This document shows, piece by piece, positions 21,897-22,559 of a DNA stretch of 64,000 nucleotides. Location of the stretch: NCBI RefSeq assembly GCF_004362895.1, contig NZ_SNXI01000012.1:1-64000 (forward strand), read 5' to 3'. This DNA comes from Idiomarina aquatica. GTDB taxonomy: Bacteria; Pseudomonadota; Gammaproteobacteria; Enterobacterales; Alteromonadaceae. Position numbers and translations under genes: made by a program. How positions within the stretch are numbered: the first letter of the stretch is position 1; each line of letters starts with the position of its first letter. Under the pieces are notes generated by a model. That model did not search any database. It was not told the origin of the DNA and saw only the letters and a list, made by a program, of their open reading frames with translations.

Positions 21897-21972
21897 GTCC
21901 CCTTCGTCTAGAGGCCTAGGACACCGCCCTTTCACGGCGGTAACAGGGGTTCGAATCCCCTAGGGGACGCCA
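21897..21972 (+). tRNA. tRNA-Glu (TTC)
   Basis: Third copy, identical to the first over the tRNA body. Anticodon at 21931-21933. It is followed within ten bases by the cluster terminator. Confidence 0.98.
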
Positions 21973-21980
21973 TACTGCAC

Positions 21981-22006
21981 AAACCGCCACCAAGGCGGTT
22001 TTTTTG
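21981..22006 (+). terminator. Rho-independent terminator of the tRNA-Ala/Glu cluster
   Basis: Stem AAACCGCC (21981-21988) with GGCGGTTT (21994-22001), a 5-nt loop and a continuing T-run. Confidence 0.9.
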
Positions 22007-22018
22007 TACCCAAAATCC

Positions 22019-22041
22019 GTAGCTCGCGCCTTTGGCGCGAG
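22019..22041 (+). repeat. REP-like hairpin, left boundary copy
   Basis: The tetranucleotide GTAG (22019-22022) is followed by a perfect 8-bp stem CTCGCGCC/GGCGCGAG with a TTT loop. A GTAG foot before a GC-rich hairpin is the known signature of REP elements mobilised by RAYT (TnpA-REP) enzymes. It faces an inverted copy at 22537-22559. Confidence 0.7.
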
Positions 22042-22044
22042 GGT

Positions 22045-22266
22045 GGGGATAGCTTAACCAACAAGACGGTATAGCTGCACTTTGGAACGGACGAGCTTTA
22101 TCAGGCTTTACGTCCTCGTTTTCAAAGGGACGCTGCAAGTACATCCCTGTACGCTTGTTTCCGGCCATCCATGGCCTCCAACACCCTTTGAAAACGAGGA
22201 CGCAAATCCTGACGCTCGCCCATCCCAAAGGGCCGCTATTCTGTGTCTTGTTGGTTAAGCTACCCC
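22045..22266. repeat. Long imperfect inverted repeat, element A
   Basis: Arms at 22045-22129 and 22184-22266 are reverse complements over about 85 bp with a few mismatches and small gaps. The best blocks are TAGCTTAACCAACAAGAC (outer) and CGTCCTCGTTTTCAAAGGG (inner, perfect 19 bp). The 54-nt centre holds its own small palindromes, GGCCATCCATGGCC and GTACAGGGATGTAC. No credible protein is encoded. The six-frame openings here are by-products of the symmetry. Confidence 0.85.
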
Positions 22267-22290
22267 AAAAAGTTATCGTATTACGGATTT

Positions 22291-22532
22291 GTGGTAGCGG
22301 ATTAAATGGCGTTATTAACAGAAATAGCAAAGCAATGGGATGGTTAATTGCGTGGTAGGTACCGAGGGGCTGTAGCCAGAAATGTTGGAGGCCATGGATG
22401 GCCGGAAACAAGCCACACGGACGTGCTTGGAGCGGTTTCTGGCTACAGCCCCTCGGTTGCCTGCCAAAAGCAATTAGCCATTCCATTGCTTTCTCTGAGT
22501 TTGCAACACAACGTCATTTAATTCACTGCCAC
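22291..22532. repeat. Long imperfect inverted repeat, element B
   Basis: Arms at 22291-22382 and 22436-22532 pair with mismatches. The inner 22 bp (22361-22382 with 22436-22457) are perfect. The arm sequences differ from element A, yet the 53-nt centre (22383-22435) repeats the centre of A in reverse orientation, with 31 identical bases at one end. No protein was recognised. Confidence 0.85.
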
Positions 22533-22536
22533 CCCC

Positions 22537-22559
22537 CTCGCGCCGGAGGCGCGAGCTAC
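22537..22559 (-). repeat. REP-like hairpin, right boundary copy
   Basis: Inverted counterpart of the left boundary: read on the minus strand, GTAG then CTCGCGCC/GGCGCGAG with a TCC loop. The TAG of the GTAG foot (22556-22558) is also the stop codon of tesA. Confidence 0.7.

Follow-up and report, generated by a model that had tools for sequence, protein, structure and literature searches.

The closest described relative of the repeats reported here is YPAL (Yersinia palindromic sequence, also RU-2), a mobile element of about 168 bp in Yersinia whose sequence is available in PMC2759123 (Table 1b). PMC2229807 presents YPAL as a mobile element for which empty sites exist (De Gregorio 2006, cited therein), as targeting positions at or near dyad symmetry with duplications of 3-26 bp, and as being transcribed together with upstream genes, whose transcript stability it possibly affects. 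Two RNA families in Rfam bear on the same structure. TwoAYGGAY (RF01731, in clan CL00106 with rsmX) has the build of the elements described below, an outer stem of low conservation that bears a pair of hairpins with AYGGAY loops, and has been proposed as CsrA-binding from motif matches (PMC4333381). Ysr224 (RF02770) is catalogued as a Yersinia sRNA; transcripts from several Y. ruckeri copies are on record, with differing profiles (PMC12112432), and a survey lists the family among the 20 most prevalent bacterial sRNAs (PMC9029176). In the literature searched, no paper links TwoAYGGAY or Ysr224 with YPAL/RU-2, and mobility is absent from the descriptions of TwoAYGGAY.

The window analysed here is a stretch of 64,000 nucleotides from Idiomarina aquatica (contig NZ_SNXI01000012.1), in which the gap between a tRNA-Glu gene and tesA is read, with somewhat better than even confidence, as holding an outward-facing pair of small non-autonomous mobile elements that give a predicted CsrA-binding hairpin RNA. 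The preliminary description of this gap recognised no named family. Judged by sequence, the element instead belongs with YPAL/RU-2, to which it is homologous as a variant or homologue rather than as standard YPAL, and it is a relative only of TwoAYGGAY.

The tRNA-Glu/tesA gap and its copies in the host genome

The features of the gap are listed below in window coordinates.

21981..22001, plus strand: intrinsic terminator of the tRNA operon, kept in most relatives' empty sites
22019..22046, plus strand: left REP hairpin, GTAG foot at 22019-22022; a separate repeat family, outside the element
22046..22266, minus strand: element A, entire hairpin, 221 bp; the sense (GGA-loop) strand is the minus strand
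22110..22203, minus strand: element A as matched by covariance model R1, which covers the tip and 20 bp of stem P1; 103.2 bits, by construction, since elements A and B were both in the training set of R1
22167..22172, minus strand: element A, P2 loop AUGGAU on the sense strand (sequence and alignment)
22143..22148, minus strand: element A, P3 loop AGGGAU within GUACAGGGAUGUAC (sequence, alignment and motif count)
22267..22289, no strand: spacer separating the outward-facing elements A and B (sequence)
22290..22532, plus strand: element B, entire hairpin, 243 bp; the sense (GGA-loop) strand is the plus strand
22363..22455, plus strand: element B as matched by covariance model R1; 101.4 bits, likewise by construction
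22394..22399, plus strand: element B, P2 loop AUGGAU (sequence and alignment)
22417..22422, plus strand: element B, P3 loop ACGGAC (sequence and alignment)
22532..22559, minus strand: right REP hairpin, GTAG foot at 22556-22559 on the minus strand; overlaps the tesA stop codon

The preliminary description had read the gap as two imperfect inverted repeats with long arms, enclosed by inverted hairpins with GTAG feet, and an inverted-repeat search recovered every arm that it gave. The arms of element A lie at 22046-22067/22245-22266 and 22101-22129/22184-22212, those of element B at 22329-22351/22470-22492 and 22361-22382/22436-22457, and the two REPs (22019-22046/22532-22559) are 89% complementary, with real GTAG feet at 22019 and 22559. 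A perfect 31-nt inverted match (22153-22183/22383-22413) joins the tips of A and B, which are therefore two inverted copies of one element. The strand of 551 nt folds at -177 kcal/mol against -83 +/- 5 kcal/mol for shuffled sequences (z -17.9, DNA parameters). The window gap, spacer 22267-22289 included, yielded no sigma-70-like promoter, and an Rfam scan of the window at gathering cut-offs returned tRNAs only. Eukaryotic microRNA families gave generic hairpin matches that stayed far below cut-off, the highest at 61 bits, and were set aside; such matches of plant and animal microRNA families in Rfam to these bacterial hairpins are a source of false annotation. A 184-aa ORF (minus strand, 21932-22486) was also rejected as an element-encoded protein, since it crosses both hairpins and enters the tRNA gene.

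The side-by-side arrangement of paired hairpins at 22046-22266 and 22290-22532 was confirmed, but not as a one-off mosaic, since the region is multi-copy. Searched by BLAST against the 2.95-Mb genome it comes from (G000), the gap returned 53 pieces at some 20 sites, and covariance model R1, built from 23 copies with tip types A and B only, has 32 matches in this genome, located in gaps between genes. Each copy carries a conserved tip of about 54 nt on arms whose self-complementarity extends over about 20 to more than 100 bp. Pairs of copies are on average 0.89 identical in the tip, as against 0.36 and 0.35 in the outer 16 arm bases. Three tip types (A, B and C) differ in the stems of P2 and P3 and keep the fold, and in many copies an asymmetric internal loop, AAA(A)GC opposite GCG/AC, was seen by eye 25-30 bp down the arm. 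At one locus (L006, G000:C1:245,200-245,600) a C-type copy lacks the entire P2 hairpin and an adjoining A-type copy seemingly lies within a C-type arm fragment, as a nested or rearranged insertion. A plasmid search with the gap sequence returned no match, and there is therefore no sign of a plasmid-borne repeat.

By sequence the outer hairpins fit the REP/BIME type, a designation that would apply to these hairpins only and not to A or B. Like REP, BIME and REPIN units, the elements are inverted paired hairpins in intergenic gaps, with REPs at both ends in the window; however, REPs are 20-40 bp long with a GTAG foot, whereas the element has a three-way tip and no such foot, and is found mostly without REPs. 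The genome holds 10 exact copies of GTAGCTCGCGC-type REPs, four of which bound two element pairs (in the window and at C3:148450), and these are the only two own-genome sites with REPs of this type on both sides. A giant BIME or REPIN, in which two REPs and their cargo are moved by RAYT, was the frame offered by the preliminary description. It would account for these two sites and for the related genome G003, where the window unit lies inverted between its REPs, but we judge it very improbable: the majority of element copies lack REPs on both sides, the G003 inversion is explained by recombination between inverted REPs, and the REP-flanked Y1 transposase gene carries a different REP family. 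Two Y1 transposases are encoded in the host genome, and one of the genes (C2:103274) sits among REPs of another sequence. Its surroundings (L059, G000:C2:101774-105094) form a REPtron, with the Y1 transposase gene amid at least seven GTAG hairpins of the forms GTAGGTCGCGTCC... and GTAGCGTGCGTCC..., and single REPs of the L059 form also adjoin element pairs on C14. The REPs do not belong to the element and are most readily understood as another repeat family that collects in the gaps where it is found. At the right end of the window pair, the GTAG foot of the REP (22556-22559) coincides with the tesA stop codon, and the insertion boundary may be a pre-existing GTAG, because several empty relatives have CTAC there.

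Gain and loss of copies between relatives

The tesA gap is empty in 15 of the 18 same-genus genomes with a tesA match, where the tRNA gene and, in most, its terminator are followed by the tesA stop. It is filled in three: in G000, in G003, which has the pair of G000 inverted between the REPs, and in G011, whose pair differs from that of G000. Two further sites behave likewise. At C3:148.5k, one pair is present in G000 and another, different one in G003, with 13 genomes empty; at C9:41k the site is occupied in G000 and in the distant G016, by sequences that differ, and 17 genomes have no match, many of them with a bidirectional intrinsic terminator. At this last site (L256 compared with L257) the relatives' terminator is absent where the pair sits, so the pair may have replaced it. 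Copy number in the genus is 8-32 in 14 of 19 genomes and zero in the remaining five. The element moves, and copies are gained and lost between closely related species. The non-autonomous mobile element that had been suggested from the gap alone is thus borne out by about 32 copies and by the empty sites in 15 of 18 relatives; the region is neither single-copy, nor filled throughout, nor devoid of conserved pairing. Target-site duplications were not seen in the comparison of filled and empty sites, in which the flanks are too diverged and REPs intervene, and the same comparison gave no sign that the arms arose as inverted copies of the target.

Neighbouring copies within 600 bp are outward-facing ([-][+]) in 42 cases, inward-facing in 7 and in tandem in 8. 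By gene-setting counts that rest on crude ORF calls, 23 of 42 clusters lie between convergent genes, and the 103 single copies divide into 30 convergent, 40 co-directional antisense, 27 co-directional sense and 6 divergent. Copies avoid promoter gaps and lie mostly downstream of genes, without preference for being sense to the upstream gene. Because antisense single copies outnumber sense ones, simple read-through fails to explain the strand bias described below.

This setting is also what would be expected of 3'-end hairpins that separate or stabilise convergent transcripts, as terminators or mRNA-stability elements, with the GGA loops being incidental. The convergent clusters and single copies and the scarcity of divergent ones agree with such a role, as do the C9 site, where most relatives' bidirectional terminator is missing beside the pair, and the YPAL passages of PMC2229807, in which co-transcription with upstream genes and a possible effect on stability are reported. 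However, a terminator needs neither two GGA loops at fixed spacing nor G·U pairs on one strand, no T tract follows the hairpin arms in the window gap, and any tolerated insertion would also be expected to be enriched downstream of genes, which together make this explanation improbable.

Fold and strand-specific selection

The tip is a three-way junction of the long stem P1 with two short hairpins, P2 and P3, whose loops contain ANGGA. On the GGA strand, P2 comprises TGTN, a GGA/GGA internal loop (paired in type C), 4 bp and the loop ATGGAT, and P3 comprises GC, YAC, the loop ANGGAY, GTR, a CTTGN bulge and GC. In the own-genome copies 98.4% of cells are paired and all 20 P1 pairs are altered on both sides, with a covariation score of 0.76; shuffles score 0.19, and slid partners no higher than 0.17. 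Class-wide, in an alignment of 51 copies that was fitted to the model and includes related same-genus loci, 96.6% of cells are paired, 31 of 33 pairs are altered on both sides and the covariation score is 0.95 against 0.20; in slid controls for the two sets, pairing is 38-49%. When element B of G000 is set against its G003 orthologue, a G:C pair has become T:A by a compensated change, and single-base insertions in the two arms also compensate each other. The sequence of P1 is almost free to vary provided that pairing holds.

Mere symmetry of double-stranded DNA predicts equal numbers of G·U and A·C on a given strand. On the GGA strand of the own-genome copies there are 88 G·U against 21 A·C (52 against 7 where both neighbours are paired on each side), and on that of 215 distinct class-wide elements 328 against 65. 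When only clean pairs are counted in these elements the numbers are 208 and 32, with a binomial p of ~1e-32 that is optimistic because the copies are related; the direction is consistent, and more G·U is found in 136 elements and more A·C in 14. The excess of G·U on the GGA strand therefore indicates selection on the folding of that single strand. The folded GGA strand is under selection, either as RNA or as single-stranded DNA, in which G·T wobble gives an identical bias. Of the structured RNA put forward in the preliminary description, the structured nucleic acid stands, through class-wide covariation and strand-specific tolerance of G·U, and it is probably RNA.

Folded single-stranded DNA might instead be the substrate on which a recombinase that reads structure acts, of the Y1/HUH type or another (cf. 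REPs, attC), in which case CsrA would be irrelevant. This would explain the strand bias equally well, and it is compatible with the mobility of the element, with an orientation to genes that is not sense-biased and with the two Y1 transposases of the genome. Known Y1 substrates, however, are shorter and have a foot sequence at the base, whereas no conserved base sequence was seen in the element; the REP-flanked Y1 transposase gene has REPs of its own that differ; and the loops retain ANGGA, sometimes as the full CsrA SELEX motif. We regard a DNA substrate as rather unlikely.

Distribution, catalogued relatives and the CsrA link

R1 matches occur in 56 of 369 sampled genomes of the class and in 49 of 272 genera, in a survey that scored 11 candidates per genome, so that copy numbers are floors. 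In a phylum-wide sample all 27 positive genomes belong to the same class, Gammaproteobacteria. A degenerate P3 pattern is found in at least 120 stretches in named genomes, with carriers that include Xanthomonas, Stenotrophomonas, Marinobacter, Rheinheimera, Halopseudomonas, Methylomonas, Shewanella, Oceanisphaera, Cellvibrio, an Idiomarina MAG and Yersinia similis. Marinobacter mobilis has an outward-facing pair (L224:4150-4433) whose tips score 99 and 103 bits with R1, a model from a distant genus; horizontal transfer of this pair is possible, because the scores are far above those of other Marinobacter copies seen.

A profile of 50 class-wide tips matches the published RU-2 at E 1e-15 (the best of 2000 shuffles reaching 1.2), and R1 matches the Y. 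similis copy at 42 bits. The element shares with YPAL/RU-2 the tip with P2, P3 and GGA loops, the bulge, a GCGU foot and the three-way fold, as well as its form as a multi-copy, intergenic long hairpin with filled and empty sites and targets at or near dyad symmetry. In contrast to the single consensus of YPAL, the arms vary in sequence and length from copy to copy, A and B exceed its length of about 168 bp, the copies are often in outward-facing pairs, and no target duplications of the YPAL kind were seen. TwoAYGGAY matches both window copies end to end, at 29.0 and 25.7 bits and hence below its cut-off of 43, and has 12 matches in the genome at E <= 10, the majority of them at copies identified here; L113, a relative from the class that R1 had picked up, exceeds the cut-off with 45.2 bits. 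Both loops of element B (AUGGAU and ACGGAC) fit AYGGAY, whereas in element A AUGGAU fits and the second loop, AGGGAU, does not. Ysr224 is 98% identical over 107/107 positions to the reverse complement of RU-2 and is thus catalogued on the opposite strand; this sRNA family entry is a mobile-element copy.

The ANGGA of both tip loops is the CsrA/RsmA recognition motif. Both GGA loops are present in 217 of 225 elements and are 23-24 nt apart in 198, in a set of which part (120 loci) was fetched by the P3 pattern, which contains GGA, and not by P2, which is outside the pattern. The CsrA SELEX consensus, RUACARGGAUGU, is exact in 20 copies and in none of the antisense copies or 11,250 shuffles, and we take GUACAGGGAUGUAC around the AGGGAU loop of element A to fit it. 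Paired GGA in hairpin loops, a trait of CsrB/RsmZ-type RNAs that sequester CsrA, is found here, and the fixed spacing of the two loops fits one bridging CsrA dimer, because in RsmZ one dimer bridges two loops. The host genome has one csrA, at G000:C12:66506-66661, 2.5 kb past the right end of the window. The co-occurrence of csrA with the element (52 of 56 element-bearing genomes against 261 of 313 others) was discarded as support, csrA being too common to discriminate.

The loops and their spacing point, with a modest balance of confidence, to an RNA that binds CsrA; an effect through CsrA sequestration or 3'-end tagging is less certain. The GGA strand would be transcribed and its two loops would jointly bind one CsrA dimer, each copy acting as a stable CsrA-binding RNA or a 3'-end tag, and copies would then sequester CsrA or alter the stability of neighbouring transcripts, while movement would depend on a transposase in trans. 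Against this reading stand the window gap's lack of a sigma-70-like promoter and Ysr224, the catalogued RNA of Yersinia, which is on the strand opposite the GGA strand. It is a tentative proposal, held at less than even confidence, that the mobile element's own conserved product is a CsrA-binding RNA, with each insertion adding a decoy for a global regulator. Alternatively, CsrA may be a host factor used by the element.

On this comparison, what had been catalogued separately as a miniature transposon of Yersinia, an sRNA of the same genus and an RNA motif without known kin is one family spread across Gammaproteobacteria. The strand-specific G·U signal offers a cheap test for selection on RNA or on a single strand in other palindromic repeats. 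If the loops bind CsrA, a mobile element rewires post-transcriptional control and many 'sRNA' annotations would be transposon copies. Should the copies indeed act as decoys, the CsrA buffering capacity of a genome would shift as the element spreads or is lost.
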